From Halichondria panicea (Eukaryota > Porifera > Demospongiae > Suberitida > Halichondriidae), in assembly GCF_963675165.1 (NCBI RefSeq), contig NC_087391.1:639001-703000 (forward strand): 64,000 nt of DNA. Direction: 5' to 3'. A model generated the notes under the pieces. That model ran no database searches, was not told the DNA's origin, and saw only the letters and a program-made list of their open reading frames with translations. This document shows positions 37,939 to 64,000 of this stretch, piece after piece. Position 1 is the stretch's first letter. Each line of letters opens with the position of its first letter. Made by a program: the position numbers and the translations under genes.

Positions 37939-40900
37939 CTAAGAGAGTGAGCCAGTTCTCTGGCCGGCTGCTATCTCAGTTCTGAGTATGAGAAACGTCT
38001 GCTTGAGGTTCCTGTTGGGGAAGAGAGTGTCCAACAGTCCCTCCAGTAGCAATAGGACCAGTCGAATGTTGAGGGCATCACTCTGGAACATACCAAACAA
38101 CCTGCCAGGGGAGAGGGAGGGTATTTAGCAATGTCACGAGTATAGCTAACAGTATAGTCAAACAGAGTACTGTACTGTAGATACACTGCCATTAGAATAA
38201 GTTGCAGTCCACCAGTAAATCCAAAAGTATAACAATTAGTACACTATTCACTCACTTAGCCATTCCCTTAGTGGAAGTGTCAGTCCCGATAAACCGTTTC
38301 ATCTCATCTGCACAGTACGTAATGTATTAAAGTTGAAAAAAAATGTGATCAGGAATTTGAGTACATGTACATGTATGTCTCTATAATGCTCTCCAACCCA
38401 CAAGTAGTTGCACTGTCAACTCCCTATAAATACCGTATATGCTTGATCAGAGGCCGCTCTTGTATAAAGGCCGCACTCAAATAGTAGCCTCCCTTGCTAG
38501 CAAAATGAAACATTTAGTAGCCGCTCTCAAATAGTAGCCTCAGGGAACTTTGACTCTAGCATTTCTGCACGAGGCAGCAAAAAAATTATCAGCTAGCTAC
38601 ATGTACGTAGCTTCTGGGTACAAGTAGCAGCTTGTTAGTGCTTCACAAAGATTTTCTCATGGCAGATTGAAGTTTATGCAGGTGAAAAGAACTTTTGATG
38701 ACAAACTAAAGGTTGTTGAATTAGCTGGAGCTAATAAACGCCGCTCTTAAACAGTGGCCTCTCTCGAATTGTAGCCTCCTCTTCCAGCAAAATGAAACGT
38801 TTAGTAGCCGCGGCTCCTGATCAAGCATATACGGTAGGTACAGAAAAGACTAGCTTTCACATCAGAGCAAACTCCCCATCATGAATAATAATGATGGATT
38901 TTTGGATGGACAACCCAAGGGGGGGGAAGTCCAAAAACAATACTAACATTTAACACATCCATCTATTAATACCTGGTATACTGCCAATCAGTTTAGCCCT
39001 TGCCATTAATGACCTCAGGGCTTTCAACTCTACACTCTGTTGAGGTTTGGACGGAGCTAATTGTCCGTTGGGCCACATAGTCGCTCGGAAGTCCCTCAGA
39101 TAACATGCCACTTGCTCCGAGGATACGAACCAATCACTATACCCGACCACTTTCCGACTGAGTTTGTCCCCTACCAACTGTTTGAGGAGGGTGGGCAGTT
39201 GCCGCCGTAGCCACTGACTGTCGGCTCGGAGGTCAAATAGTTCATCGAGGAGAATAAGCATGATGTCCACAGGGAGACTGTCCTCATCCTGTGGAGGCAA
39301 CAAAGAGGGAGAGAGGATCAGATCACATACATGTACATGACTTATGCTGAAGCACAATAATGTTGTTGGAGAGTGTACACTTCCTTACAAAATAATGTTA
39401 TGGGAGAGCACACTTCATTACAAAATAATAATTATAAAAATTAATCGTTGAATTTCGACCATCAGTTACAGAGCTGACACTAGTTATTTGGGACTTAAAA
39501 ACTCAACAATTAATTGTATGACTTCACCTCTTCTCCTGGTGGTTTGGGTGTCTCTGATGATGGCTGCTTCTTGACTGTCACTGGAGACATCTTGGAACTC
39601 GACTGGCCAGAGGACTTGAGTGCACCTCGGGTCAATGTGGCCACACGTTTTAGAGGGTTGAGGAGAGTGTTCGCCTGTGAGGGTGGGGAGTGTGTGTGTG
39701 TGTGTGTGTGTGTGTGGTGGGTGGGGAGTGTGTGTATGTGTGTGTGTGGGTGGGTGTGTGTGTGTGTGTGTGTGTGAAGGGCGTGATACTTACCATTCTC
39801 TTTAGCTCGGTGCTCTGTCGTTCGTACTCTCCTTCTGACAGGAACAAGATGACCTGACCCAACACGTCGAGGTGATCTGATAGGAATTCCTCTGAGGTGA
39901 TAGTTTTGAGGTAGCCCTCCAGCTGAATTCGTCTCACGTCCAACCGCTGGGGGTCCAATTTGTGGAACGAGGGAAGAGTGGGTAGCACGAGATTAGCCGG
40001 GAAGTTATCAATCTGGGAGGAGGGAGAAAATTGCTATTTTGGAATTCAAGAGCTTAAGTAATAAAAAATGAAAATGCAGCTAAGTCTGTACCAAAGACCT
40101 TACTAGTATTGCAACCATGAAGGGGACGTAATGATAGATTGAGAGCTGTGTGTTTGTATGCTTTTTGTATAGTACCCCGCCCCCTCCTTTCAGCTACTAC
40201 CCACCTGTGCCCTGAGTGAGAGGTGGAGGTCGTGGAAGTCTCTATAGCGACGATCAATGATCCACTTCTCAGTGACAGAGACATGGCTGTGTTTGCAGGA
40301 GACGTTGACGTGAAACACACAATGCTTGGTGGTACCCTCACTCTGAATGGTGTAGTCGGGAATGGCGGCTGAGAGGGCAATGAGACTATCACTGGACACA
40401 TTCGCAGGGACACTCTTGGCCTGTGGAGTGTGTGGAGTGGGTGGGAGTGGGGTAAGGGATGTGTGTGTGGAGGATGGTTGGCAAGGAGAGGCATATATAC
40501 ACTTATGGAATGAACAAACAGTTACTGTAGCTTACACTGAGTACTGCTTTAGCAGTGGCCAGAACTGATTCCAGAGCACTTTTCTTCAGTCGATCATAAT
40601 CTAGAAACAGAGTTACAGACAATAAAACAAGAGCATTACAATTTTAGACGAGACCCAACAAAAGGAAGTAATCAACATAACACACCTGTGACTCCGGTCT
40701 TCTGCAGGTGTGAGATGTGAGAGTTGACGTTGTACCTGAGTGATCGTACCTCGGTCTCGTTGGCCCCCTCACTCAGAGCAGCCATAAAACTGTCAGTGTT
40801 CAGAGAGCTCTCCTTGCACTGGACACGGGGGAACACATACAAGTGAGAGGAACAACAATGGGAGGATATTGAAAATACTTTTATGATCAAAGCCATTCAG

Positions 40901-41125
40901 CATGCACGAAGTTAACAGACATAGTTCTGAAACACGTACACCATTCCCTCACCATTGATATGAAGGTGGTGTTGATGTTGTCTGGTAGAGCTAGTGTCTT
41001 GAGCAATGGTGTCCAGACCTTCCAGACCAACACATCGGTGAGGAGGGCCTGGAGGGACGGAGAAGAGAACTCGTCCTCTGGGAGCACAATACACAGCAGC
41101 AGCTCAGAGAGACGATACAGGTAGG

Positions 41126-41199
<74 letters not shown>

Positions 41200-42120
41200 T
41201 AGGTTTGACAACATTGGATGAATTTCATACACTTTCCACACTAATACAAACGGAAATATTTTCAATAGATATTCTATAAGAACTACACAGTGATACTAAG
41301 TACAATGCTCGTACCTATCCTGGCTTCCCTGTCACAGCAGACGGCCCTCCACGGGTCCTCCCCACTCTCACACTTGAAGAACTCTGTCTCCACCGCCTCG
41401 TTCCATATTGCTGCACTTTGACCTGTAACTACACCCACTGATGCAGTTCCACACGCCACCTTGTACGCCCTCAGGTGATCCATAAAATCATTCATGAGTG
41501 TCTCTATGAAGAAGGCCAGATAGTCAACCTCTCTGCCAGCCGCGGCTACTTCTTGAATCACATTGTGGGCCAGTTTTAGGGCTTCTTGGGAACACACTGG
41601 GTCGGGACTGACGTGGGTGTGATACCAGCTCTCGAAAAGGTCTCGTAGTCCGAGGGACAACAGCTGTTAGGGTGTGGGTGGAGAAGATAATAGCTTTAGG
41701 TGTGTGTTTAGGGGAGGGGGTGGTTGTGTGTGTGGTGTGAGATTGTGATCACCTTTTCTAGTTCTTCATCAATGCTCCTCACTCCAGTGAGTTGACTGTT
41801 GAACTGGAGGGGGCGTGGCTCAACAGAGGGTGCCAACACCTGGGGAGGTAGCAAACAATGAGACAATGACAGCAGCGAGGATTGACGAGGTTACCTTGTG
41901 ACAGCCGACTTGTGTCCATTGAGGGCTGCTCTCTGTCCACAGCTTCCTCACATGACAGGCCTGCTGCCAACTGACGTACAGTGCAACAGAGAGGAACCTG
42001 AAGTCAAACAGTTGTACTGACTGTATAGACTAGTGTAGTATATAGTGTGTGCATGGTGATGCATTCTTACCCTAGAATGAAGGACAAGACACAGAGAACC
42101 AGGAGTAGGCCACCATCCAT
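37939..42120 (-). CDS. SNX13: Sorting nexin, SNX13/SNX14-like: TM, PXA, PX, nexin-C
   Basis: Thirteen exons (42120-42071, 41997-41895, 41839-41753, 41663-41315, 41125-40953, 40818-40686, 40600-40536, 40420-40205, 40012-39794, 39674-39528, 39288-38973, 38307-38256, 38101-37939) give 690 residues. An N-terminal hydrophobic anchor (GLLLVLCVLSFILGFLSVAL) is followed by a PXA domain (GLRDLFESWYHTHV; LLCIVLPEDEF). Next come a PX domain (DRRYRDFHDLH, LPTLPS) and a nexin-C domain (LLDELFDLRADSQWLRRQL; RATMWPNGQLA). SNX13/14 proteins sit in ER and endolysosomal membranes and bridge organelles and lipid droplets. The RGS domain between PXA and PX of human SNX13 is absent; only about 65 residues separate them. 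All exons are intact, unlike the copy at 58.9-61.9 kb. Confidence 0.9.
38433..38834. mobile_element. TIR element, CCGTATATGCTTGATCAG family
   Basis: About 402 bp. Ends CCGTATATGCTTGATCAG and the complement CTGATCAAGCATATACGG are flanked by TA. Internal GCCGC and TAGTAGCC motifs are repeated in direct and inverted form. It lies in an SNX13-like intron and is non-coding. Confidence 0.88.
39691..39776 (+). repeat. TG microsatellite, SNX13-like intron
   Basis: TG-rich tract between exons 39528-39674 and 39794-40012. It is CA in the transcript and leads into the acceptor at 39674. Confidence 0.85.
41126..41198 (+). repeat. TG microsatellite abutting SNX13-like acceptor
   Basis: A perfect dinucleotide run. 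In the minus-strand transcript it is (CA)n ending CAG at the exon starting 41125. The duplicated copy at 60831-60896 is interrupted by GGTG and GCG. Confidence 0.92.
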
Positions 42121-42267
42121 TGTATAACGCCGAGTCAGCAGAGTGTATGACATGCATGTGACATAATGATATTCATGCCTATAAATCCTGTAGCCACATG
42201 TAAATCACATGTCACATATCACATGTACATGTACATATTGATGTACATTGTACATCTATTAATAAAC
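42121..42267. promoter_or_regulatory. Divergent promoter, SNX13-like / ankyrin-Death-kinase gene 1
   Basis: 147 bp between start codons. A block GTCAGCAGAG...TATGACATGCATGTGACATAATGA is conserved with the duplicated promoter at 61927-61962. It contains CATGCATG and a TGACATAA element. Retention in both copies supports, but does not prove, regulatory function. Confidence 0.55.
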
Positions 42268-45200
42268 ATGGCAGAACAAGATCCTCTTCATCTTGCTTGT
42301 AAGATTGGTCACTATCAGACTGTGGAAGCTCTCCTGAACCATGGATACAATGTGAACGGAACAGATGATAAAGGAATCACCCCTCTCGTGTATGCATGTG
42401 GATATCGCCACACTGACATTGCGATACTGCTGCTGAGTAGAGGATCTAGAGCACAAGTGAACATGCAAGATAATGATGGGTGGTCTGCTCTGAACGTAGC
42501 AAGTCAAAATAGACATAGCGATGTCGTCAAAGTATTGATAGAAAAAGGAGCACAAGTGAACATACAATTGAATGATGGGCGGTCTGCTCTGATGATAGCA
42601 AGTCAATATGGACATAGCGATGTCGTCAAAATATTGATAGAAAAAGGAGCACAAGTGAACATACAATTGAATGATGGGCGGTCTGCTCTAATGATAGCAA
42701 GTCAAAATGGACATAGCGATGTCGTCAAAATATTGATAGAAAAAGGAGCACAAGTGAACATGCAAAAGAATGATGGGTGGTCTGCTCTGATGATAGCAAG
42801 TGAAAATGGACATAGCGATGTCATTAAAATATTGATAGAAAAAGGAGCACAAGTGAACATGCAAAATAATGATGGGTGGTCTGCTCTGATGATAGCAAGT
42901 CAAAATGGACATAGCGATGTCGTTAAAATATTGATAGAAAAAAGAGCACAAGTAAACATGCAAAATAATGATGGGTTCTCTGCTCTGATGATAGCCGCAA
43001 GTCAAAATGGACATAGCGATGTCGTTAAAGTATTGATAGAAAAAGGAGCACAAGTAAACATGCAAGATAATAATGGGCGGTCTGCTCTGATGATAGCAAG
43101 TCATAATGGACATAGCGATGTCGTTAAATTATTGATAGAAAAAGGAGCACAAGTGAACATGCAAACGAATAATGGGTGGTCTGCTCTGATGATAGCAAGT
43201 CAAAATGGACATAGCGATGTCGTTAAAGTATTCATAGAAAAAGGAGCACAAGTGAACATGCAAAATAATAATGGGTGGTCTGCTCTGATGACAGCAAGTC
43301 GAAATGGACATAGCGATGTTGTTAAAGTATTCATAGAAAAAGGAGCACAAGTGAACATGCAAAACAATGATGGGTGGTCTGCTCTGATGATAGCAAGTCG
43401 AAATGGACATAGCGACGTCGTTAAATTATTGATAGAAAAAGGAGCAGAAGTGAACATGCAAGATAATGATGGATGGCCTGCTCTGATGATAGCGTGTTAT
43501 AATGGGAGAAAGGAAGTAGCTCGGATATTGCTTGACCATCACGCTGATACAAATATTCGAGATAGAAATGGTAAAACTGCACTTAGTATGGCAATTGAAG
43601 CAAAGCATGCTGAAATAGTTGAGTTGTTACTACCCTACGAGCACAGAGACACTACCTCAAGCAGCAGTACATCCACAGATGAACCTCCAGTGAAGCGGAT
43701 GAAGATTGAAAAAGGTGAGTGTATTTTCTATAGATAACTTAGTATAGCCACAATTATCGTTACTGACTAATTTTTTTTTAGGAGAAGACGATATTTCACT
43801 GTCTAAAGAGGTAGCAGCAGTCACTAACACGGATGCTTTTCCCACACAAGATGTGCAGCCTGCATCTCCATCCAAACAAGTCAACATATACATTAAACTA
43901 AGTGAACACTAATGCAACCATTATTATGTATACAAGCACTTACGTTTCTATACAGAGTCTCCCGAGCTGTCTCTGAAGGTGTTGTCTATGGAACTGAAGA
44001 CGGTGACTGACCCGATACAACTGGGTGTCGGCCTGGGAGTGGCACAGCATCACCTGGAGATAATAAGGAAAAACAACCCTCAAGGTTTGTGTGTAAAGTG
44101 GTGAACTGTTTATCATCGTACTCACATGTGTATACTCACAGACATAGGACAACAACAGTTCGACCTTTTCTCGTTCATTGCCAAGAACAACATAGTGCTG
44201 GGGATCACATGGGAGAGGATTGCTGACACTCTGGAGGAGTTGGTGGGCATGGGAGATTTGGCACAGGAAATCAGGAAAAAATTCATCAACTTTACCCAAC
44301 CTGGGCTTAGTGTCGTTGAAGGTATAATTATGTGCTAATCTGAAATTTAAAATAAACCTTTTTTTATGCAGCTGAACTTGTTGAAGTTGACTTTTTTAAG
44401 GAACGTATATCGGAAGGCTTATTTATTTTCAAAGATAAGCCCATCGGAAGTGGTGCATTTGGCACAGTATTTAGAGGTGAACTGAATGGTGGTTGTTGTG
44501 CCGTCAAGGTCCTTCGCTCAGTTGCTGATGAAATCCAAACACAGTTACCAACAGCGAGTCTCGCCTCAACAGATTCTGTTGAGAGGTTTCGGAAAGAATG
44601 TGAATTTTTTGAATCATTTCGCCACCCCAACATTGTTCGTCACCTAGCAACCAAGAAATATCCCAAGACGAACCACCTCGTCCTTGCTCTAGAACTGATG
44701 GACTGTAACCTGCGACAATACTTCACTCCTCAGGCTGACAAAGAACCCATCAAGCTCTCGCTAGCAATCCAGACTAGCCTTTGTCATGACATAGCCTCGG
44801 CACTCGAATACATCCACTCACGAGGGGTGGTACACAGGGACCTCTGTGGAGAGAACATTCTGCTGTCCTGTGGAGGGGAAACCCCCGTTGCTAAAGTGTG
44901 CGATTTCGGAATGTCTAAAATCACCAAGAATGATACTCGAAGTGTATCACTGCAAGCATTCGCTCACAAAGGATTCATGCCACCAGAAGCTACTGACATG
45001 GAGTCATCGTCCTATAACTCGAAATTTGACATCTTCTCATTTGGTGCTCTAATGGTTCAAATTGTCCGCCATCTTCCCACTATTAAAGACGGAAAATATC
45101 GTAAATATGAATTGAAACTGATCAATGAAACTCACCCCATCAAGGAACTTATAATAGATTGTTTGAATGAGAACAGAGACGATCGACCATTAGCTGCTCA

Positions 45201-48200
45201 GCTAAAGAGGAGACTGGAAATCAGGAGCAAGTATAGCAGTATCAATCAAACAGTTTCTGAAGGTATTATATATATAATTATAATAACCAAAATGGTACAT
45301 GTCCATGCATGCTATTATATACACGGTATGTTTTTACAGGTACATGTAGTGTAAAGCTTTTTACTAGGGGGCCACTTGGGAATTTTAGCTCCTACGTAGG
45401 TCTATATGATTGAATAGCTTGACCGTAACATTGTGTAATGAAGTGGTACTCTTGTGCATGACTGTTATATTGTCATATTCTCCTCACAGGTAATGCAGTG
45501 ACTCCACTAGCCACTCCACACACAACCACTCAGTCAGGTAGCAGATACTGTGCATTGGTTTGACTGTAGTATTAATTTTGTAAATTTGTACAGTACTGTA
45601 CATTTTATAGAGGAAATGATGTCACTTAATTAACTGTCAATGTATATGTTTTATCTGTACAGTTCAACAACGATCAAGGGCCTATATAATTATGCTGTTG
45701 TGTGACCTCTAATAATGATTTTATAGTGTACATTTGCTTCAGCTAATAAATATATACAGCAGATATGGTGCTAGGAACCAAAGACCATTGTACGTATAAT
45801 GTTTCTCATGTGGTTTTCCTCTCAATTGATAATAAATACTATTCTGATTCATGGTTTACTCTGGGGTCTAATCTCTTTGTGTTCAATGTAGAGCACTTAT
45901 TGTTATTATAGTTTGATGTCCTTCATTTCCGTGGAAAATGACATGTTTTCGTATATCTAGAACACATTGGAGAATCTGTTGTGGAGATCACTAACAAATC
46001 TAAAAAGTTCAGCAATTTTGGAATTAAGATTTCTGTCCCGGAAAATTCGCTACCTGAAGGTATTGGTACGTGTGTCCTACACATATCCTTCGAGTTATCC
46101 ACTGACCTTGAGACTCCCGCTAACTTCGAACTACTCAGCTCAATTTATCGTGTGAAATGTGAGCCCAAAGTACAATTTAAGAAGCCTCTCACCTTGGAAA
46201 TACAACACTGTGCGAGTTTAAGCTCTGACCATCAACAAAAGCTCGTGTTTGCTCGAGCAACAGATCAGAGCAAAAAGTTTGAGATCCTGGAGGGTGGACA
46301 CTTTCCTATTGGTGAACGCTATGGATCCATCCAGCTTACTCGTTTCAGTCGCCTCGGTGTTTTCATTCGTAAATTATTAGGCTTTCCAACTGAGAAGATG
46401 TACAGTGCATTGCTGTTCAGAAAGAACTTACCCTGTCACACAATTGATGTGAAATGTGTGATATGTCGGGATCTAGCAACTCATGTACAGGTAGGTTTCC
46501 CAGTAATAGATAAGGAAGCATAATTATAGCCTATAGCTACCATGCAGTGTTACATAATTATGAGCTTTTATTATTACAGGTAATTAGAGAGGAGTTAGAA
46601 GAAAAAGATAGATTCACAAAAGAAATGGATCTAGGTCAAATTCGATTTGAAAATGCAGTAGAGATGGAGCTGCATTCAGAGAATCCCGAGCTTTGGACTG
46701 TTGATAGAGTATTATCCACTGTGAGTTATTATATATAGACATACAGGCGGTAATAATAATAAGCGTACACTCTTGGGGATCGAGGATAACATGCAACAAA
46801 ACAATGGACTGGTGTGACTATTACATGTACATATGCTTGCTTGTAGCTGTCCAGAGATCAAATTGAGGGATACTCAAGAGTGTTGAATTCTAATAGACGA
46901 CTTGGAGTTGTTCCAGCCATCCATTATAGATTTAACCTGAAGGAAATGTTTTTTTCTGAATCAGTAAACTTTTTGCTGACGAAAACCGATTTAGATGAAG
47001 AGAACCATCATTTGACCCTACACATTTGTTGTAAGTAATCTACAGGTATACGTACTACAATTATTGTAGAAAATAACTTTTCCTATACAATGCATCCAGC
47101 TTAGAGAGTAGATTACCACACATTTGTGAGTAGCTGTACTTAAATGTAAATATCTTTTGATTGGAACATTTCTAAGAAATGGTGTTGATACCAATGTGTA
47201 GGTGAATGACCAAGCTACAACATATCCAAAAATATTTCCATGGAAACATAAGGTGGTACAACAGCAAATTGTTATAGTGGGTAATCGGTTGTAATCTTGT
47301 ACAGCTAAGGTCCTAGACTTCATCACATAATTGTTCAATGGTTTAGGTATCCTGACCATATCCCTTTATATGGGTCTTACATAAATTATGTTCACAGTGT
47401 TTATAATTCATGATTTACTGGTTTTCACTTTTGTTAGAGTAATAACTTCTGAAAAATTAATAGCTTAGCTTTCAAATTTCTGTAGTAAGTTTACAGATAA
47501 ATGGGCTACATTTTGCAAGAACATCCCATTGCTGAGATAACACTGAAAAGCTACATAATTTACTATTTTCTACTGTTTTGATGACATCAGCAGCTGCAAA
47601 CCACAAACCAATGCCGCTTTAATCAACCACAAACGTAATTAAAAGTGGGCGTACAGTTATTGTACGCCCACTTACGTGGTGTCATCGATTTGTGGTTAGC
47701 AGCTTGTGATGTCATCAAAACGGTAGAAAATAGTAGTTTTTCAAACGTTAGAAAATAATTATAATTAAATAATAATTATTTAGAAATAAACGGTAGAAAA
47801 TAGTAGTTTTTCAAAAAATGTAGTTTTTCGGTGATATCTCAACAATGGAATAAGCATAGAGGATGTTCTTGGTATCAAAATGTAGCCCATTGGTTTGTAA
47901 ACTTACCAGAGAACTTTTAAAGCTAAGCTAAAAAATTTCCAGAAGATATTACTCTAACCAAAAGTGTACCTAAAAACCGGTAAATCATGAATTATAGACA
48001 CTGTGAACATAATTTATGGTAATACCCCTTTATGGTCAGGATACCTAAACCACTGAACAATTATGTGAAGAAGTCTAGGACCTTAGCTGTACAAAATTAC
48101 TGTTCTATTACTCCAACCGATTACCCACTATAACTGTTGTTCTACTAATCACCACAAACCCACCACCTTATGTTTCCATGGAAACATTGTAGCTTGGTCA

Positions 48201-50626
48201 TTCACCTACACATTGGTGTCAACAGCATTTCTTAGAAATGTTCCAATCGAAAGATATGTACACTTAAGTACAGCTACTCACAAATTTGTGGTAATCTACT
48301 CTCTAAGCTGGACGCACTGTACATGTATATCAGGAGCACATTACAGAAGGAGCGTCTAACTGGTCTAACTGTGCATGGATTTGGAAATCGCATCTCGTGT
48401 GCTTTCCTAAACGCCGCATTGCCTTATAACATGCAGCTGTACCTCCACACCGTTAGCCTCGAATCCAGGCCTAGCCTGTATGAATCGGTGAGGCACTATG
48501 TAGAACGTTTGCTGTGCAGGCCATGGTCATGAGGGATACAGTAAACGTAGAGCAAGCTAGCTGGCTATACCGGCTTGTCTCTTGATTCCTTTTTCTTTCC
48601 TCTTATTGTCGATAGGTGTGGTCAATAATACTGAACATGCCTACTATTCATAAATTTTCGTGGGTATACATTTTCCGCGGTACAGGCTCAATCCGCGAAA
48701 ACCGAGAACATTTTTATACCCTCGAAATATACCCGCTATACGGTACTGTCCTGATACTTGTGTGCACAAACCTTAACAACTTATTTTTTCCTCAGTACCC
48801 CGTATTCTGGGAAGGAGTGACTCAACCACACAGAGAGGTCAGTTCAAGTGTATAGCCAACGTATTTTGTGTATATTTTTAAGTGCACCTTCAGTTGTTGA
48901 CCCAAACAAATCTGGAAGTGATTTCCTGATAACATCTGTAGCCTTACAGTGTAGGGTGCCGTTAAGTAGAGACTTGGCTTGATACAATAAAGGGCGTAAG
49001 AACTCAGTCATCTTTGCACAATACTTCTATGTAACGGACTCTAATTTCAGAATACAAATAGTATACGGTTTATTTTACTGACAGTATCCACAAATACACG
49101 GATTACCCCCTTTTTGGGGTAATGTACGCGCATGCGCATACAAGGTATACCAGGCCGCCTTTCTTGTCGCGGCCTGGAATTGAGGCTAGTCAGTTTCGTG
49201 CAAATCCAATGGTTTCCTGCTGCTGCTAAACGTTTTTTCTTTCTTTTATTATGTTGAATCCTCAGTTTTGACAAATGTACAATACAACAAGAGATAATTT
49301 TTTGGTTACGAAGTACTGCTGAAAAAAGATTATTTATGATCGACGTCAATGTGGGGCATAATAATTATGTTTTTTTAACAATGCTGAAATTAGGGAAGCT
49401 AGTGCTCAAAAGCATAATAGGCAGAAAAAGAGCATAATTTGCCAGGGCCTAGTCTTAGGGCAGGCTGTATTACCAGTGTACATGTACACAGTGTTCACTG
49501 TCTCTGCCCCACAATGACAACAGAACTCTTACAACTGCCCAATTCATTTACCATACATTTTTTAGTTGAGCTGCTTCAGCATTACACAATTAAAAGGTGA
49601 TGGAAGTGATGGAAGCTTCGGACAAAAATATTAGCTCGTAGGTCTAAGAGTAGCTTGACCGTAACATTGTGTAATGAAGGTGGTACTCTTGTGCATGACT
49701 GTTATATTGTCATATCCTCCTCGCAGTGACTCCACTAGCCACTCCACACACAACCACTCAGTCAGGTAGCACATACTGTGCATTGGTTTGCATTGTGAAT
49801 TTGGTCAACATTACATCTACAGTCTATGATGTCTCAATAATGTGTGTTTTATCTAACCCCAAGTAACTATAATAGTGTCTATGTTGGTGGTAATTCTCTA
49901 TCAGATCATAGTTTCATTACCATTGTCTTCATTCCTACCATTCATTACCCCAACCACACATATTTATCAGATGGCTTGTATATGCAATGTCATTAGCGCA
50001 CTTTAAACTTTGCTTGATCCCATAATAAATATTAAGGCCTGCCCTAAACTTGATTCTTTGAGACTGATGTCCCGTGATGTCATCATCCTTTGTTACAAGC
50101 GTACCTTTTCTATTTAAGTGAATTTGAAAAAAGGCTTACATATTTATTATGGGATCAAGCATGTTTGTAATCTTGTGTTATTGTATAAGCTGGTCACTTT
50201 CCCTAAAAATAACGAATAACATTATGTTCACATGTGTGTACAGGAGGATTGTCAGCAGAGGAGCATCCTAGCAAAACCGATCAAACAGTAGAAATTTCAA
50301 AACTGTTTCTGACTGGAGCTGATATCCAAACAATTCGCGATAGTCTCAAAAATGCAAGCAAAGATTGGTTTGATTTAGGATTGGCTCTCGGAATGAATAT
50401 TACTGACTTGAAAGACATTGAAGACCAACACGCTAATAACAAACGCCGCCTAACAGAGATGGTGGGCAAGCGTCTTGAAGTCACTGATCCAGAACATCCG
50501 ATGACATGGCCTTACATATGTGATTGTCTAAGGAGGCCTACCGTTGCGCGTAACGATGTAGCCAAGGAAATTGAAGACAAGTATGTGAGGACAGCAACTG
50601 CAGTTGCTCATAGTGCCACCAATTGA
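42268..50626 (+). CDS. ANK(14)-Death-protein kinase-ZU5-UPA-Death protein
   Basis: Eleven exons (42268-43714, 43782-43901, 43956-44084, 44142-44321, 44372-45262, 45490-45537, 45961-46490, 46580-46720, 46847-47030, 49727-49765, 50244-50626) give 1363 residues with consistent phases. Fourteen ankyrin repeats occupy 1-460. A Death-fold domain lies at about 525-610 (LGVGLGVAQHHLEIIRKNNPQ; WERIADTLEELVGMGDLAQEI). The kinase spans about 638-890: IGSGAFGTVFRG, CAVKVL, HRDLCGENIL, CDFGMSK. ZU5 is at about 940-1060 (FGIKISVPENSLPEGI), then a UPA-like region and a C-terminal Death domain (WFDLGLALGMNITDLKDIE). It joins RIPK/IRAK-like Death-kinase features to the ZU5-UPA-Death tail of PIDD, UNC5 and ankyrins, so a cytoplasmic danger-sensing or death-signalling role is inferred. 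No signal peptide or TM segment is seen. The weakest calls are the exon 2 donor and exons 6 and 10. Confidence 0.85.
42463..43490 (+). repeat. 99-bp tandem repeat array encoding ankyrin repeats
   Basis: Ten near-identical 99-bp units (ankyrin repeats 3-12) encode WSALMIASQNGHSDVVKVLIEKG-type repeats, shown in part. One unit has an extra codon (IAAS). The low divergence at silent sites suggests recent unequal crossing-over or gene conversion. Antisense frames through the array are by-products. Confidence 0.9.
47086..48320. mobile_element. 1.2-kb near-palindromic foldback element
   Basis: The left arm (from about 47091, TGCATCCAGCTTAGAGAGTA) and the right arm (ending about 48316, the complement of TGCGTCCAGCTTAGAGAGTA) are imperfect inverted copies over 550-640 bp. 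They meet at a tight hairpin, AAGTGGGCGTAC and GTACGCCCACTT (47643-47673). The right arm has an extra AT-rich block of about 80 bp. No transposase frame is present. It lies in intron 9 of the ankyrin-Death-kinase gene. Confidence 0.9.
48454..49188. mobile_element. Element with TAGCCTCGAATCCAGGCC ends, nested MITE
   Basis: The left end TAGCCTCGAATCCAGGCC and right end GGCCTGGAATTGAGGCTA are inverted repeats of 18 bp with one mismatch. The interior includes GCGCATGCGC near the right end, as in the element at 26743-27324. A partial CCGTATAGCGG-family element is nested at 48649-48746. No target duplication was found. Confidence 0.75.
48649..48746. mobile_element. Partial CCGTATAGCGG-family MITE
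   Basis: The right terminus is ACCCGCTATACGGTA. Internal AATTTTCGTGGGTATA and GAAATATACCC form the inverted repeat, but the left CCGTATAGC terminus is missing, so the copy is 5'-truncated. Confidence 0.65.
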
Positions 50627-51098
50627 TCATGAGAACCTGATAAGGTAGTGTGTTTGTAATCTGATTGTAGTCTAATCTTGTGTCATGTTGCTTAAGACTC
50701 TGAGGTGACCCCAAAGCATTCCACTTTATTTGTTCCTGTATAATTAGGTAGTGCGGTGATAGAGTTGCTGACTCAGCGATTATCAGCCATCACTCGACTG
50801 AGACAACATGAAGTATCTTCTCTGACGTTGCTAAGGCCGTTGCTAGGCTACACCATCGAACAAAACCCATCATACATCGTGACCTTTTGCTGAATTCCAT
50901 AGTAAAATTTAGGTTTTCTTCCCACTAGTGGTTATAAAAGTAGTAGCCTATAAAAGGGACCAAATGAGTTATTGGTTGGGATGGTGGGGCATAAGTCCCA
51001 AATGGATATCTCTTAAAGAAATCTCACAATGAGACCAATCCAATGATACTCGTATCATCACATCCTCACACAACACACACCCGCCCACATGCACACAG
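50627..51098. other. Spacer after ankyrin-Death-kinase gene 1
   Basis: 472 bp. A short open stretch at 50751-50892 reads AVIELLTQRLSAITRLR then GYTIEQNPSYIVTFC, ending in TGA; it has no recognised relative. Nothing else could be supported. Confidence 0.4.
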
Positions 51099-51590: not shown

Positions 51591-51722
51591 GTGAGTACCT
51601 TACTATTAGTATACCCTGTGTATGTATAGTGGTGGGTAGACCAACAGTGGCTGTATTATAGAGGGTGGTCTGCTAACACAGGTCCATGCAAACATATTCA
51701 CCCAATGTGTTATATTCTGCAG

Positions 51723-52400
51723 GCAAACCAACTGATGCAGCTAACAAGGAGTATATATCAGAGGATTTGGTTCTGTTTAAAGATAAGCCCATCGGAAGTG
51801 GTGCATTCGGTTCAGTATTTAAAGGAGAACTGAATGGACAGCCTTGTGCCATCAAATTGCTACATGCAGTTGCCAGTGAAATACGAACCCAAATACCAAC
51901 TGCGAGTCTCGCCTCAACAGATTCTACTGAGAGGTTTCGTAAAGAATGTGAATTCTTTGAGTTGTTTCAACACCCCAATATTGTCCGTCACCTAGCAACC
52001 AAGAAACATCCCAAGACGAACCACCTCGTCCTTGCTCTAGAACTGATGGACTGCAACCTGCGACAATACTTCACTCCTCAGACTGACAAAGAACCCGTCA
52101 AGCTCTCACTAGCTATCCAGACCAGCCTCTGTGCAAGCATTCGCTCACAAAGGATACATGCCACCAGAAGCTACTGACATGGAGTCATCGTCCTATAACT
52201 CGAAATTTGACATCTTCTCATTTGGTGTTCTAATAGTTCAAATTGTCCGCCACCTTCCCACCATTAAAGACGGAAAATATCGTAAATATGAATTGAAACT
52301 GATCAAAGATGCTCACCCCATCAAGGAACTTATAATAGATTGTTTGAATGAGAACAGAGACAATCGACATTAGCTGCTCAGCTAAAGAGGAGACTGGCCT
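51723..52400 (+). pseudogene. Decayed ankyrin-Death-kinase family kinase domain
   Basis: This is a third copy of the kinase exon, starting after an AG acceptor with GKPTDAANKEYISEDLVLFKDK, very close to the copy at 63776. The G-loop (GSGAFGSVFKGE) and the lysine (CAIKLL) are intact up to TSLC. Then, relative to 44785-44951, about 167 bp are missing at 52131. This removes the HRD and DFG motifs and shifts the frame to a stop. The C-lobe resumes (AFAHKGYMPPEATDMESSSYN), but a 1-bp deletion near 52369 (CGACCA to CGACA) ends it at NRH. No ankyrin, Death or ZU5 exons accompany it. Confidence 0.88.
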
Positions 52401-52968: not shown

Positions 52969-55777
52969 CTACCACTTGTACTTGAAGTTCATTTTGAGCA
53001 GGCACTTGATTCTTATCTGGCTCACATCATACAATGAACCTGTGATAAAGATTAACAAACTAGCCGATTAGATATTATATTAATATACATGTAGTCTGTA
53101 CAAAGTGTTTAACATCCTACACAACACACACACACACACCCACACACACCCACACGCACACCCACACACTGACACTGAATAGGATACTCATTATAGAGTA
53201 GTGAGGTATTGTCGACGGCTGTGGAGGAGCCCTTGCCCATGGGGATGACCACACCCTCCTCAGTGGTCTTGTGGCCGTCAGTAGTGGGGGCGGTCCGACC
53301 CAGACCCTTGGTACTGTGCTTACCAGCTGGCAGCTTGTCTACATACTTGGAGTGGGTCAGCTCACACCTGCACACACACACACACACACACAGCATTTGA
53401 GTATAATTGATGAAAATATGAAATTCAAGGTTACTTATCACACACACAGTAAGAGAATATGCAGGGTCAGCAGATATTAATAAACAACACACAAAATCCA
53501 CACAACCATAATGACCAAAGCAGGCTCAGGGTCCCAAAACAACAAAGAACTATTGTTACACAGGTTGCCATGATATCTAATCAAGATCCTAAACAAAACC
53601 ATGGAAACCAACTAAGTCATCAGTACACAGTGGTTCAAGTATTGGGAGATGGTACAGTAATTATAAAATTACTCTCTTTATTTCCAAAGCCCCACCCACT
53701 GAAGCACAACCCTCACACCTTACACACCACTCACATGTCTCCGAGGGCAACCTCACAGAGGAGCATGAGTCCCTCGTTGTCAGAGCGAGAGGTGTTACAG
53801 TAATTGGCACTCTTGGAGACCATGTCTGCAAAGTACACCCCCTTCCCAAACATGTAGCCAGTCACTGGCGCCTCTGGTGGAGCTATTCGAAGACCCTGGG
53901 ACAAATTAAACAGTGAGTAAAAATTTACAAGTCATCATTGTGAAGACTTCAACTGCATACATGTACATGTAGACATTGACACACACCAAATGTTATAACT
54001 GAATGTGCATACACAACATACCTGAGATAGTATTCCCACAAAGTTGGTCTTCCTGGAGCCGTGCCAGAGCAACTGTCTGTTGTGGAGCTTTGAGAATGGT
54101 TTGTATTTCTTCCCCTCCCCTTCTCTGTCCACTTTGAACACCTCCAGCACCTCCAGTGAGTACTGAGAGTGGGTGACCGCATGAGTGTTGGACACGTACT
54201 CCTGCAGCATTGAGAACTCATCAGAGCTCTTGGGCAGCACCTGACGTGGTGGGGAGGGTAATAAAGGAAGTAAAAAGGATGAACTTATTAATAATTGTTT
54301 GTTTGGGTGATTTTTGTATGGAGGAAATTTTCGTACATTTCGTATTGAAGAGTAGCACTGCAATAGATTTAACATCACTATCCTGAGCTTTACGAATATT
54401 TAAAATACATATTTAAATGGGTAACACATACAAAAATGACCCGCTATACGGTACTGAATAACAGCCAGCTTGCATGTTTACGTTCACCTTTGTGTATACA
54501 TATAAACAAACAGCAAAAACATAATTAATTTTAGCATACCTGCAAAAAGAATCGACAGGTTTGTTGGCTGGAAACAGGAGTGACATCTTGAGCTGCTCAT
54601 AATGCAGGTCCAATGGATCCTTCCCTCCACTCACACCATCCTCCTGTTTCAGTAGCGAGTAGGCCACCTCAATCTCCAGTAGATTATCCAACATTTGTGT
54701 CTTTATCTTTATAACCTCCTCTGAGTTCAGTGGGGGTGGTTTCGTCATGCCAAAGTCATGTGGTACTAGAGTGTAGAATCTGTTAGTACAGTCCAGGATT
54801 TTGCTCGGATTCTGAGTCCCAACAATCTCTCGTTGTAGCTCAGAGAGGACAGAATATGCACTCTCTATCTGTCGCCGTGACAACTTTCCCAAAGGCATCT
54901 TCTTTATATCAATCTGTGGCAAACAGAGTGTGCAGAATTGAATTGCTGTTGCACAATTCATATAAAACTAGCTTGTAATAAGACAATCCCTAGCTAAGAC
55001 ATGGCTTGTGCATGTACCTATACGAGATCTTGTATGGGAAATCGAGTGGCTAGTGTACTCTCTTATATTAAAGACCCACCTCAAACTCCAGCATAGCTTT
55101 CTTCATGCTCTCCACATCAAATATCATTCGAATGAGATCTTGTATCTCAGGGGCCAGTGTGGACTTTGAACCAGGAGCAATTCCAAGCTGTTGCCCAGTG
55201 TCCTCATCACCACCATAGTCTATCTCCAGGGGGTAGAACTTGCTAGGTCTCTTAACAAAGCTCTCTTTACTGGTGCCCCATGAATTGCCTGTCTTGTCTT
55301 GGTAGAGGAACTCAAAGTGCTTCTTGGCAGCAGGTTTGGAGGCTCCAAAACTCTGTGAAGGATAATTAACAAACAATTATTCTCTGTATCATAAAAAAAA
55401 AGTGTTCCATTCAGAAACAAATTTGCAGTACCTAACCTTCAACAAAATATTGCTTATACAAAGTATCCTGTATCTAAAGCTACTTTCTTCCCCCTCCCTC
55501 CCCCCCCTCTCAGTGGTTTAGCTCACCTCTGTCTTTGAGCCTCCTATGGTGGTCCCCACACGACCCCATGACCTGAACACATAGTAGTTCTTGCTGGAGT
55601 CTCCTTCGAGCAGCTGCAGCTTGTAGTACGAGTTAGTGCCTCTTATGACATCGACCAATCCAAGTACAGCATTCCAGACCACACCCCTCTCCTCCAGTAC
55701 GTGGTGTGACCCCTCCAGCTCTGAATCAGGGTCCACTGCAGCACCACCCTTTACCATCACCTTGACCTTGCTGGGAC
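52969..55777 (-). pseudogene. PARP1: PARP1-like remnant: WGR, regulatory and catalytic exons (unit B)
   Basis: Minus-strand exons 55777-55527 and 55352-55080 ([28 protein letters not shown]), 54913-54540 (helical regulatory domain), 54240-54022, 53895-53735 and 53367-53188 (ADP-ribosyltransferase fold) and 53039-52969 (tail). The catalytic H-Y-E triad is present in LLWHGS, KGVYFAD and LLYNE. The zinc-finger, BRCT and other 5' exons of PARP1 are absent; sorting-nexin exons lie upstream instead. Lesions: the regulatory exon's 3' end is replaced (after HYEQLK), putting it out of phase with the catalytic exon; the last exon lacks two bases (GTATGATGTG where V-Y-D-V needs GTATATGATGTG), ending the frame early. 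A functional PARP from this unit alone is unlikely. The final intron has a U12-like donor. Confidence 0.8.
54431..54452. mobile_element. Solo right TIR of CCGTATAGCGG family
   Basis: GACCCGCTATACGGTA in the intron between the unit B regulatory exon and the first catalytic exon. No matching left end was found within 200 bp. It lies close to the unit B breakpoint at about 54587. Confidence 0.55.
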
Positions 55778-56083
55778 CTGGGTGGAGGGAGGGGTGTGTC
55801 TACAGGTACGTATATATACAGTCCGGAGGCACTAATAACATAAATTTATGTACATCTCAAATTAGGTGGTCAACAAAGACCAAAGGAAAGTGATTTACAA
55901 AGAAAATACCTTGAAAATATGTGGGTTAAAATCAAAAGTCTATTATGGACAAAATATCGAGAAATTATGGCGCATTCCAAATTTTAGATTTGAGCGCTAC
56001 CATCTGAATCGGCTCTTTCTAAGGTTGAAATTGGACCACCAGAACTCTAGTTATCGTAACTTGAATTAATTGCATGACTTTAC

Positions 56084-56885
56084 CTCTTCTCCTGGTGGTT
56101 TGGGTGTCTCTGATGATGGCTTGTTCTTGACTGTCACTGGAGACATCTTGGAACTCGACTGGCCGGAGGACTTGAGTGCACCTCGGGTCAACGTGGCCAC
56201 ACGTTTTAGAGGGTTGAGGAGAGTGTTCGCCTGTGAGGGTGGGGAGTGAGTGTGAGTGTGTGTGTGTGTGTGTGAGTGTGTGTGTGGGTGTGGGTGTGGG
56301 TGTGGAGGGTGGGGAGTGTTTGATTGAAGATTATACAAAGGTATTGGGGTGGGCAAGGATTGTCAGTCGCACACCCTCCCAATCTTACGGAAAGCTTTTA
56401 AAAAGTTTTTTATTTACGGTGTTGGAATCCAGTCTTCACTGCTAGCAGAGGATTATTATTGTATGGAATGTACACTATTTTGATGGGCATCAATTACTAG
56501 GAAAATGTAAAATCCTCATAATAATAGTAAACAAAAAAGAACAAAAGAGCAGACAACATAAAACCATACAGCAATAGAAAAGCAAACAGATGCCCGACCT
56601 TGAGAGCCGAGAATGATGGGTTAAAGAGTCTTTAACAGTACACCAACACTCCCCATTCATCTGTTGCATTCAGAGTCACTAGTACTGAATAATTATTGTA
56701 AGGTATTTACATTGAGGTCATGCTGATATAAAGAGGGCGTGATACTTACCATTCTCTTTAGCTCGGTGCTCTGTCGTTCGTACTCTCCTTCTGACAGGAA
56801 CAAGATGACCTGACCCAACACGTGGAGGTGATCTGATAGGAATTCCTCTGAGGTGATAGTTTTGAGGTAGCCCTCCAGCTGAATT
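56084..56885 (-). pseudogene. Sorting-nexin exon fragments of unit B
   Basis: The 147-bp exon at 56230-56084 (ANTLLNPLKRVATLTRGALK) is intact. The upstream PX-end exon is cut: only its 3' part (to 56750) remains, ending at about 56885 after CAGCTGAATT, where sequence changes to a TG microsatellite. These are a second copy of SNX exons 9 and 10 of the pseudogene at 58906-61865. Confidence 0.82.
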
Positions 56886-56892
56886 TGGGCAA

Positions 56893-56896
<4 letters not shown>

Positions 56897-56955
<59 letters not shown>
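56897..56955 (+). repeat. TG microsatellite at duplication breakpoint
   Basis: A perfect TG run immediately beyond the truncated sorting-nexin exon of unit B. It marks the junction between duplicated and non-duplicated sequence. Confidence 0.85.
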
Positions 56956-56957
<2 letters not shown>

Positions 56958-57115
56958 GGGGGGGAGGTAACATTGTTATTACAACCACAGGTGCAGGAAT
57001 ATGAATATTATATATTCATCCTACTGAACAACATGTCTATGTTTATGTCTTGTTGACACAAGTTATTATAGATTCTGTGACATGATAAGGTACAGTACAC
57101 AGAGATTACAATCAA

Positions 57116-57249
57116 TGCAGAGGTGGTCCGACAGGCGCGGTGCAGCTCAAGCTGATTAATTATCCGCCCACATCGTATGTTTTTGCTGAGTGTAATCAGA
57201 GGCTAGTTGCTTGAGCTGCACCGCGCCTGTCTGTCGGACCACCTCTGCA
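57116..57249. mobile_element. 134-bp palindromic element with 5-bp target duplication
   Basis: Ends TGCAGAGGTGGTCCGACAG and the complement CTGTCGGACCACCTCTGCA. The inverted repeat runs about 40 bp inwards (GGCGCGGTGCAGCTCAAG and complement). Both flanks carry ATCAA. It is non-coding and sits just downstream (minus strand) of the unit A regulatory exon. Confidence 0.85.
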
Positions 57250-57273
57250 ATCAATGAATGTACACATACTCAC

Positions 57274-58601
57274 ATCCATCTTGGTCTTGAGCTGCTCATA
57301 ATGCAGGTCCAATGGATCCTTCCCTCCACTCACACCATCCTCCTGTTTCAGTAGCGAGTAGGCCACCTCAATCTCCAATAGATTATCCAACATTTGTGTC
57401 TTTATCTTTATAACCTCCTCTGAGTTCAGTGGGGGTGGTTTCGTCATGCCAAAGTCATGTGGTACTAGAGTGTAGAATTTGTTAGTATAGTCGAGGATTT
57501 TGCTCGGATTCTGAGTCCCAACAATCTCTCGTTGTAGCTCAGAAAGGACAGAATATGCACTCTCTATCTGACGCCGTGACAACTTGCCCAAAGGCATCTT
57601 CTTTATATCAATCTGTAGCAAACAGAGTGTACAGAATTGCAGTTCATATAAAACTAGCTTGTAATAGGACAATCCCTAGCTAAGACATGGCTTGCATTGT
57701 GTATGTGTACCTATACGAGATCTTGTATGGGGAAATCGAGCGCTAGTTTATACTCTTTTAAGACCCACCTCAAACTCCAGCATAGCTTTCTTCATGCTCT
57801 CCACATCAAATATCATTCGAATGAGATCTTGTATCTCAGGGGCCAGTGTGGACTTTGAACCAGGGGCAATTCCAAGCTGTTGCCCAGTGTCCTCATCACC
57901 ACCATAGTCTATCTCCAGGGGGTAGAACTTGCTAGGCCTCTTAACAAAGCTCTCTTTACTGGTGCCCCATGAATTACCTGTCTTGTCTTGGTAGAGGAAC
58001 TCAAAGTGCTTCTTGGCAGCAGGTTTGGAGGCTCCAAAACTCTGTGTACGATAAACAAACAGTTATTTTCTACCATCGAGAAACAAATTTGCAGTAAGTA
58101 TGCTGTCCTAAACCTTAAACAAAATATTGCTTACCGTATAGCGGGTAATTTTCGTGGGTAAGCTGACTTCCACAAAATTTTAACGCAGGCGTGGAATGCA
58201 GTGCAGGCAACAAGACTAAACGAAACTTGTACTCATGAAAACCACCGTTTTCCAGATCAACGAATTTACCCCATGAAAATTACCTGCTATACGGTATACT
58301 GAATCTTAAAGCTACTTTCTTCCCCCTCCCTCCCCTCTCAGTGGTTTAGCTCACCTCTGTCTTTGAGCCTCCTATGGTGGTCCCCACACGACCCCATGAT
58401 CTGAACACATAGTAGTTCTTGCTGGAGTCTCCTTCGAGCAGCTGCAGCTTGTAGTACGAGTTAGTGCCTCTTATGACATCGACCAATCCAAGTACAGCAT
58501 TCCAGATCACACCTCCTCCAGTACGTGGTGTGACCCCTCCAGCTCTGAATCAGGATCCACTGCAGCACCACCCTTTACCATCACCTTGACCTTGCTCGGA
58601 T
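57274..58601 (-). pseudogene. PARP1: PARP1-like WGR and regulatory exons (unit A)
   Basis: Exons 58601-58355, 58041-57769 and 57612-57274 duplicate the PARP exons of unit B. The first (WGR) exon has lost 4 bp at about 58510, so the frame reads VLEEV then TGA (58507-58509). The second exon is intact. The regulatory exon keeps the probable original end LKTKMD before a GTGAGT donor. That end joins in phase with the first catalytic exon of unit B (VLPKSSDEF). Units A and B thus carry complementary damage. Unit A also contains a MITE (58135-58294) absent from unit B. Confidence 0.85.
58135..58294. mobile_element. TIR element, CCGTATAGCGG family, with visible empty site
   Basis: 160 bp, ends CCGTATAGCGGGTAATTTTC and complement of CCGTATAGCAGGTAATTTTC, flanked by TA. 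The paralogous unit B sequence (AATATTGCTTATACAAAG, about 55446) lacks it, giving a direct before/after comparison and a TA target duplication. The interior matches the element at 14080-14280 in reverse. Confidence 0.92.
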
Positions 58602-58905
58602 CTGGGTGGAGGGAGGGGTGTGTCTACAGGTACGTATATATACAGTCCGGAGGCACTAATAACATAAATTTATGTACATCTCAAATTAGGTGGTCTGTAC
58701 ATACAACAAAGACCAAAGGAAAGTGATTTACAAAGAAAATACCTTGAAAATATGTGGGTTAAAATCAAAAGTCTATTATGGACGAAATTATGGCGCATTC
58801 CAAATTTTAGATTTGAGCGCATACCATCTGAATCGGCTCTTTCTAAGGTTGAAATTGGACCACCAGAACTCTAGTTATCGTAACCAATTCATTACATGAC
58901 TTCAC

Positions 58906-61865: not shown

Positions 61866-62015
61866 TGTATCAAGAGTGCACTCTTGATTGTATCATGTCA
61901 GGAGTGCATGAACATGCCATATGCCAAGTCAGCAGAGTATGACATGCATGTGACATAATGACTTCATTGCATTGTGAAATAACATCACTTGTAAATCACT
62001 AGTACATCGATAAAC
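61866..62015. promoter_or_regulatory. Divergent promoter, SNX pseudogene / ankyrin-Death-kinase gene 2
   Basis: 150 bp. It holds a perfect 20-bp palindrome ATCAAGAGTGCACTCTTGAT at 61869-61888 that is absent from the copy 1 promoter, then the block AGTCAGCAGAGTATGACATG...TGACATAATGA shared with copy 1. Confidence 0.5.
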
Positions 62016-64000
62016 ATGGCAGAATTAGAACCAGGTCCTCTGCATCTTGCTTGTAAGAATGGTCACTATCAGACTGTGGAAACTCTCCTGAACCATGGAT
62101 ACAATGTGAATGGAACAGATAATGATGGAACCACCCCTCTCATGTTGGCATGTGCATATGGCCACACTGACATTGCGATACTGCTGCTGAGTAGAGGAGC
62201 ACAAGTACACATGCAAAATAATGATGGGCGGTCTGCTCTGATGCTAGCAAGTCATAATGGACATAGCGATGTCGCTAAAATATTGATAGAAAAAGGAGCA
62301 CAAGTGAACATCCAAGAGAATGATGGGTGGTCTGCTCTGATGATAGCAAGTGAAAATGGACATAGCGATGTCGCTAAAGTATTAATAGAAAAAGGAGCAC
62401 AAGTGAACATCCAAAATAATAATGGGTGGTCTGCTCTGATGATAGCAAGTCAAAATGGACATAGCGATGTCGCTAAAATATTGATAGAAAAAGGAGCACA
62501 AGTGAACATGCAATTAAATAATGGGTGGTCTGCTCTGATGATAGCAAGTAAAAATGGACATAGCGATGTCGTCAAAGTTTTGATAGAAAAAGGAGCACAA
62601 GTGAACATGCAAAAGAATGATAAATGGTCTGCTCTGATGATAGCAAGTCTTAATGGACGTAGCGATGTCGTTAAAGTATTGATAGAAAAAGGAGCACAAG
62701 TTAACATGCAAAAGAATGATGGGCGGTCTGCTCTAATGTCAGCGAGTAAAAATGGGAGAAAGGAAGTAGCTCAGATATTACTCGATCATAACGCTGATAC
62801 AAGTATCCGAGATACTAACGGTAAAACTGCACTAAGTTGGGCATGTGAGACAGGGCATGCTGAAATAGTGGAGTTGTTGCTATCTTTTGAGAGCAAAGAC
62901 GCTACCTCAGGCAGCACAGATCAATTTTCAGAACTCCAATCTCTAGCGGAACGGATACAGATCGAAAAAGGTGAGGTTATCATAATTATATACCTATTTT
63001 TCTGAGCCCAAGCAATTCTTTTAATTGTTTCTCTTTCGTCGTACAGGACAAGATGTAGAAGCTGCCATAAGCACAGTACAAGGGAATGATTTGGATGCAT
63101 TTCACCACACACAAGATATGCAGAAAACTGAACAAAGTAAACACATGTACTATAATAATTATGGCATACTGTGCATGTATCAGATGACTTCCTGTATCTG
63201 TCATGGGCTTTTACATCACCCACATTGGTCAGTGTTCAAATTCCAAGCTTGTGACAGATACACAGTTACGTTACTCTCCGCATACAGTCATTTGATACAT
63301 GTATACTCTTGCCAGGTATTTACTAATACTTGACCGTCAATTGTGTGTGCTCATGCATGGCAGAATCCCCGGAGCTGTCTCTGAAAGTGTTGTCTATGGA
63401 ACTGAAGACGGTGACTGACCCGATACAACTGGGCGTCGGCCTGGGAGTGGCACAGTATCACCTGGAGATAATAAGGAAAAACAACCCTCAAGGTTTGTGT
63501 GTAAAGTGGTAAACATGATTGTATTCACATGTGTACTCACAGACATAGGACAGCAACAGTTCGACCTTTTCTCGTTTATTGCCAAGAACTACATGGTGCT
63601 GGGGATCACATGGGAGAGGATTGCTGACACTCTGGAGGAGTTGGTGGGCATGGGAGATTTGGCACAGGAAATTAGGAGCAAGTATAACATTGTCAAACCT
63701 CAAAAGGTTACAGGTGAAGGTAAAAAACAAAATGGTTAGTTTACATATTCACCCGAATGTGTTATATTTTTGCAGGCAAACCAACTACTGAATCAGCCAA
63801 CAAGGAGTATATATCAGATGACCTGGTTCTGTTCAAAGATAAGCCCATCGGAAGTGGTGCATTCGGTGAAGTATTCAAAGGAGAAGTGAATGGACAGCCT
63901 TGTGCCATCAAATTGCTACATGCAGTCGCCAGTGAAATACAAACAAGGATACCAACTGCGGGTCTCGCCTCAACAGATTCTGTTGAGAGGTTTTGTAAAG
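62016..64000 (+). CDS. ANK(9)-Death-protein kinase protein, paralogue 2 (cut by window end)
   Basis: Exons 62016-62970, 63047-63136, 63364-63492, 63543-63713 and 63776 to the window end. Nine ankyrin repeats (fourteen in paralogue 1) are followed by the same Death-fold domain (LGVGLGVAQYHLEIIRKNNPQ; WERIADTLEELVGMGDLAQEI) and the start of the kinase (IGSGAFGEVFKGE, CAIKLL). The start ATG (MAELEPGPLHLACK) aligns with that of paralogue 1 and is preceded by the same ATAAAC. The exon between the Death domain and ankyrins differs in sequence between paralogues, while Death and kinase exons are highly similar. No lesion is visible up to base 64000. Whether ZU5-UPA-Death exons follow cannot be seen. 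Confidence 0.85.

Follow-up and report, generated by a model that had tools for sequence, protein, structure and literature searches.

Does a single sponge gene encode an ankyrin-Death-kinase receptor that continues into a ZU5-Death module, or have two separate products been joined on paper? This question is raised by a locus at positions 42268-50626 on the forward (+) strand of a 64,000-nucleotide stretch of Halichondria panicea DNA (hereafter the window; contig NC_087391.1, positions 639,001 to 703,000). An earlier note, made from the sequence, had proposed one gene model carrying both sets of domains, and this proposal agrees with what we find. A model of 11 exons, with GT-AG boundaries at all junctions and no internal stop codon, is open throughout and encodes 1,364 amino acids. 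The NCBI model of this gene (LOC135348400 isoform X9; protein P0001, apparently from RefSeq; 1,352 amino acids) likewise joins the ankyrin, kinase, and ZU5 regions. It differs in that it skips exon 2, which encodes a linker (43782..43901), adds a 39-nucleotide mini-exon (49727..49765; VTPLATPHTTTQS), and starts 15 residues upstream, at an in-frame ATG 45 nucleotides ahead of our exon 1 (42223-42267). NCBI models of this kind are usually based partly on RNA-seq data. The gene is probably transcribed, and joint transcription of its two halves is predicted by the NCBI gene model.

The reading that we favor, with somewhat better than even confidence, is that this gene is a one-off chimera encoding an intracellular receptor with an ankyrin sensor, a kinase, and a ZU5-held Death domain. 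Its fusion structure is established at the level of the DNA sequence. The gene is apparently a real and recently assembled chimera whose combination of parts is new, while the parts themselves are known and are widely shuffled in this genome. We read it as a single product of phase-1 exon shuffling, not as one of an expanding family that shares its architecture.

Pfam searches with the 1,364-residue model recovered 14 ankyrin stretches (PF00023), a kinase domain at residues 647-904 (E = 6.7e-35; positions 44434-45207), and a single ZU5 stretch at residues 956-1031 (E = 6.3e-7, above the cut-off; positions 46011-46238). The kinase motifs are intact (GSGAFG at residue 651, the AVK lysine K671, HRD at 780, and DFG at 803). 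The 14 repeats, full kinase, and ZU5 domain that had been described are all borne out. The repeats occupy exon 1 (42268..43714), in which near-identical 99-bp central units vary mainly at codons 2 and 14. Exons 3 (43956..44084) and 4 (44142..44321) each encode half of a first Death-like region, and exon 5 (44372..45262) encodes the kinase. When this kinase was compared with PDB, the top-scoring structures were CTR1, EGFR, ALK, and roco4, and neither RIPK nor IRAK was present among the best 60 of 2534 matches. Farther downstream, exon 6 (45490..45537; 48 nucleotides, phase 1-1; NAVTPLATPHTTTQS) is one of two copies of a small exon, the other being the mini-exon used by isoform X9. Exon 7 (45961..46490) carries ZU5 and the beginning of a UPA-position region that continues through exons 8 (46580..46720) and 9 (46847..47030). 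Exon 10 (48796..48837) is a linker, and exon 11 (50244..50626) encodes a terminal Death-like domain and the stop codon. Intron 9 also contains a fold-back (palindromic) element of about 1.24 kb at 47086-48321, whose arms are 85-96% complementary.

The remaining domains proposed from the sequence fared less well in the same searches. The first Death-like region has no Pfam match, and the terminal one is below threshold (E = 0.0084 in the full protein and 0.005 when cut out). These two regions are 26-27% identical when aligned. A five-sequence profile of both gave nine PDB matches (E = 0.33-1.6), eight of which are FADD or PIDD chains, and the top match is an amylase (E = 0.33). No UPA match was obtained by Pfam, by PDB sequence search, or by a whole-genome family search, and the control for one of these searches gave no signal. 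One of nine relatives has a weak FIIND match (E = 0.031). Likewise, the 1,364-residue model has no Pfam match to an UNC5-type extracellular domain or to TRADD-N, the best 25 of 30 matched NCBIfam families are all below cut-off, and the window has no Rfam match at the gathering score. A fold model of a relative (P0132; 431 amino acids, 32 rows) has a mean predicted local distance difference test (pLDDT) score of 54.8. Ten-residue blocks over its ZU5 domain (131-250) score 71-94, and a Foldseek search with this model returned no match to E = 0.001 (best 0.04). A different fold model, for P0002 together with P0001, had a mean pLDDT of 31 and was of no use.

The origin of the fusion can be traced on contig C15, where the gene is embedded in a tandem array. 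A genome-wide kinase search, in which 104 of 790 candidates were scored, placed seven full-length kinase copies (the window gene among them) and two partial copies at C15 683k-768k. The frames of all six other full-length copies stop 1-8 residues after an LKRRL motif, and at the DNA level they cease to resemble the window gene at 45217-45220, within exon 5. One array protein modeled by NCBI, P0013, has an extra Death-like region ahead of its kinase and ends at the kinase. The architecture of the tandem family is therefore ANK-Death-kinase. At the usual stop position, the window gene instead carries a segment (45213..45275) that shares 81% identity with the end of an array Death exon, splice donor included (C15:766238-766304). 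The genome holds 59 ZU5 relatives, and on C15 the only one is the window gene itself; the idea that ZU5 is common to the whole array was dropped because no other ZU5 match occurs on this contig.

Relatives of the acquired exons are found mainly elsewhere. The order exon 6-ZU5-exon 10-second exon 6 copy-Death (window 45344-50694) recurs at C1:2364-2369k, in a gene that has additional sequence between exon 6 and ZU5 and whose upstream open frames resemble the middle of a C1 protein, P0004. In P0004 itself, the NAVTPLATPHTTTQS piece of exon 6 stands before the terminal Death domain. The terminal Death exon has at least 150 relatives (150 of 446 candidates were scored), mostly on C1 and C14, and its nearest copies are on C1 (94% and 92% amino acid identity). 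Internal modules are all of phase 1-1, which permits exon swaps. Frame and splice sites are kept in all six of exons 6-11, and the ZU5 exon has a ratio of nonsynonymous to synonymous substitution rates (dN/dS) of 0.356-0.449, which spans the time since duplication and not only the time since fusion. Some other ZU5 relatives lie behind open frames that by eye appear Death-like (L022, L024, and L026), ankyrin-like (L029), or kinase-like (L044), and in both L029 and L044 the ZU5 itself is interrupted by stops; L029 was omitted from alignment A1 owing to its stop and missing exons. According to precomputed Pfam labels, P0001 is the only protein with both a kinase and ZU5 in three sets of matches (12; the best 120 of 873; and 31 limited by length). 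In L044 (C10:5509103-5512276), the kinase-like frame, recognized by eye, has DMG in place of DFG and lies upstream of the ZU5 relative and a piece of a Death-like exon.

We envisage that an ANK-Death-kinase gene of the array would have lost its stop codon when its kinase exon fused with an array Death-exon tail. The tail would have brought a phase-1 splice donor, which could then splice into an exon 6-ZU5-UPA(?)-exon 6'-Death cassette related to the C1 genes. If so, the locus offers a base-level view of how a sponge gene lost a stop codon and gained a signaling tail by phase-1 exon shuffling. The product would be an intracellular receptor, perhaps with a diversified ankyrin surface that binds a microbial or non-self ligand, a kinase that serves as the N-terminal output, and a ZU5 segment that holds the terminal Death domain inactive. 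The maximum hydropathy over 19 residues is 1.08 in the 1,364-residue model; the earlier NCBI start gives a hydrophobic N-terminus of 15 residues. Ankyrin engagement, with probable PIDD/FIIND-like self-cleavage between Phe1067 and Ser1068, might free the terminal Death domain to nucleate a Death assembly. The surrounding cluster of fast-changing genes is probably immune.

The candidate self-cleavage site lies at the end of ZU5, where the codons for Phe1067 and Ser1068 occupy 46344..46349. We aligned 32 ZU5 proteins (30 of 31 search matches plus P0002 and P0001; P0154 was omitted for its 17% coverage). The window gene included, the Phe position is Phe in 31 proteins and Tyr in one, and the following position is Ser, Cys, or Thr in 31 of 32. 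The preceding residue is Arg in the window gene and His in eight of 32. This His is not obligatory, because CARD8 uses SFS at its site (PMC3210808). As judged from these residues, the F-S ending is no less consistent with self-cleavage of the PIDD/FIIND type than with an UNC5-style clamp, in which ZU5-UPA would close on the Death domain without cleavage. Such a clamp, which the earlier note had raised, is compatible with a chimeric origin, but we regard it as doubtful since UNC5b has Leu-677 at the Phe position (PMC3210808) and since UPA is not detected here. Self-cleavage of a sponge ZU5 domain becomes directly testable.

Variation among the ankyrin units bears on the proposed sensor. A sequence-pattern count found 21 units and missed units with other residues, and the analyses used in-register units only (14 from two genes, or nine from the window gene). 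The nine central units of the window gene are 73-94% identical (mean of 82%). They require a minimum of 29 base changes, six of which fall on codon 2 (the chance of any codon reaching six is 0.007). Six codons at canonical positions 1, 2, 3, 5, 13, and 14, where the binding face is expected, hold 12 of the 29 changes versus 5.3 expected (p = 0.003). Among the 11 units of paralogue P0013, variation is greatest at places that include 2, 4, 6, 14, and 15, and more than one unit also deviates at 11, 13, 23, and 30. In this early-branching animal, ankyrin arrays may be surfaces that have diversified for recognition. The same pattern of variation in the ankyrin repeats of fungal NLRs is backed by tests for positive selection (PMC4986451). 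An extended proposal holds that this is an animal non-self receptor in which concertedly evolving, surface-diversified ankyrins of the fungal NLR kind are combined, by a recent exon-shuffling fusion, with an active kinase and with a ZU5 domain that cleaves itself and releases Death, so that one sensor has two separable outputs. We consider this full combination improbable.

Several points weigh against the favored reading. UPA is unproven, and in the P0132 fold model most of the UPA-position part is of low confidence and the F-S loop has a pLDDT below 50. The window gene has Arg where the HFS motif has histidine. The hydrophobic N-terminal 15 residues of the NCBI start could be a membrane anchor; these residues are missing from P0013 and hence may stem from a leader that has been mistaken for coding sequence. 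For the ankyrin units, the mean identity of 82% is less than the 85% that was required of the fungal repeats, and the set of surface codons was picked after the data had been seen. Moreover, the overall ratio of nonsynonymous to synonymous changes is 23:6, near the random expectation of 4.2:1, so it is the clustering of change that is notable and not an excess of it. The terminal Death exon has an omega of 0.912 against its C1 copy, based on few changes, which indicates little constraint. Finally, the joining of the kinase and ZU5-Death exons is a prediction of gene models, and unspliced exon 5 runs in frame to a stop at 45354, which makes a kinase-only isoform possible.

These last points would be explained if the fusion were one of annotation, with the functional product being an ANK-Death-kinase protein that ends at 45354 by intron retention and with the ZU5-Death cassette being an insertion that is rarely spliced or is decaying. 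The six other full-length array copies are complete without ZU5, and the fold-back element in intron 9 also fits this explanation. However, the NCBI model unites the parts while using an alternative small exon, the cassette exons all retain frame and splice sites, and the ZU5 exon carries the dN/dS noted above for the time since its duplication. In addition, exon 7 lacks an in-frame ATG ahead of ZU5, so a separate ZU5 gene starting in this exon is impossible, and that candidate was dropped. An annotation fusion therefore appears unlikely.

The cassette is also not limited to one place in the array. At C15:732.9-734.1k, exon 6 and a Death exon occur without a ZU5 match and are followed by a dead kinase that shares the deletion of the dead copy in the window; this DNA is 92.8-96% like the 3' part of the window gene, and its Death exon is 73% alike in protein. 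The history of the cassette in the array is thus longer than a single event. This remnant could suggest that array genes once had ZU5-Death and that the other copies lost it, but such an ancestral architecture is very unlikely given that C15 has no other ZU5 match, that the junction joins a kinase end to a Death-exon tail, and that relatives of exon 6, ZU5, and Death lie chiefly outside C15.

Comparison with known systems places the favored chimera among familiar parts. The absence of a vertebrate example says little because the genome is that of a sponge. Ankyrins (ankyrin-B, PDB 4d8o) likewise have ankyrin repeats, a ZU5 fold, and a terminal Death-like domain, but they are ordered ANK-ZU5-ZU5-UPA-Death, whereas the window gene has 14 repeats, one ZU5 instead of two in tandem, a kinase, an extra internal Death-like region, and an unproven UPA. 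PIDD1 and the FIIND proteins NLRP1 and CARD8 are similar in that their ZU5 ends in F-S and a Death-fold domain lies at the C-terminus, with a repeat sensor as well in PIDD1 and NLRP1; the window gene differs in its kinase and in the Arg before F-S, and its cleavage site is a candidate and its UPA region unproven. RIPK1, RIPK4/ANKK1, and IRAK combine a kinase with a Death domain or ankyrin repeats, but the structures most like the window kinase are those listed above.

A partial precedent has been published for amphioxus, whose RIPK-like XP_035662392.1 also has ZU5, a kinase, and a repeat sensor in one protein (LRR-ZU5-kinase; PMC9573974 Table 3). It has leucine-rich repeats (LRRs) instead of ankyrin repeats, ZU5 ahead of the kinase, and no Death domain listed there. 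In the sponge Amphimedon, one TRADD-N clade comprises 357 proteins, up to half with unique architectures and most with Death-like domains, and some have variable parts such as ankyrin repeats or kinases (PMC8195603). Those proteins differ in their TRADD-N core, which has no Pfam match in the window gene, and ZU5-UPA fusions are reported from another TRADD-N clade (PMC8195603). NACHT-ZU5 and NACHT-Ank proteins have been reported from early animals (PMC12909245), and the lipopolysaccharide response of H. panicea includes kinase-activity genes, some with DEATH or LRR domains (PMC8242945). Fungal NLR repeat receptors likewise combine near-identical ankyrin repeats that vary at concave-surface positions with combinatorial architectures, but they have NACHT/NB-ARC in place of a kinase and are not homologous as a whole (PMC4986451). 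No account of this sponge architecture was found among the literature matches listed.

The earlier note had also described a paralogue and a dead third copy as signs of an expanding family. Both copies are real, although a family with the full architecture is not, since the other full-length array copies end after the kinase and lack ZU5. The next array member (61995..63999, +) is an ANK-Death-kinase gene that runs off the window, with a stop three residues past LKRRL in locus L057. The dead kinase (51677..52373, +) is missing 166 bp that include the catalytic loop, and the same deletion is present in the copy at C15:735213-735626. Both have a Death exon upstream, which indicates that a block of several parts was duplicated. 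Beyond the 11 rows on C15, there are at least 95 further kinase matches, many densely clustered on C1 (15.5-17.9 Mb) and on C6 (0-0.8 Mb). Interleaved with the kinase array on the reverse (-) strand are two tandem PARP-like stretches (window 53935-57675; PARP_reg in both and the PARP catalytic domain in one piece tested) and duplicated sorting-nexin-like pieces (38950-41666 and approximately 58840-61416), with PXA at both and Nexin_C at 38950-39384.
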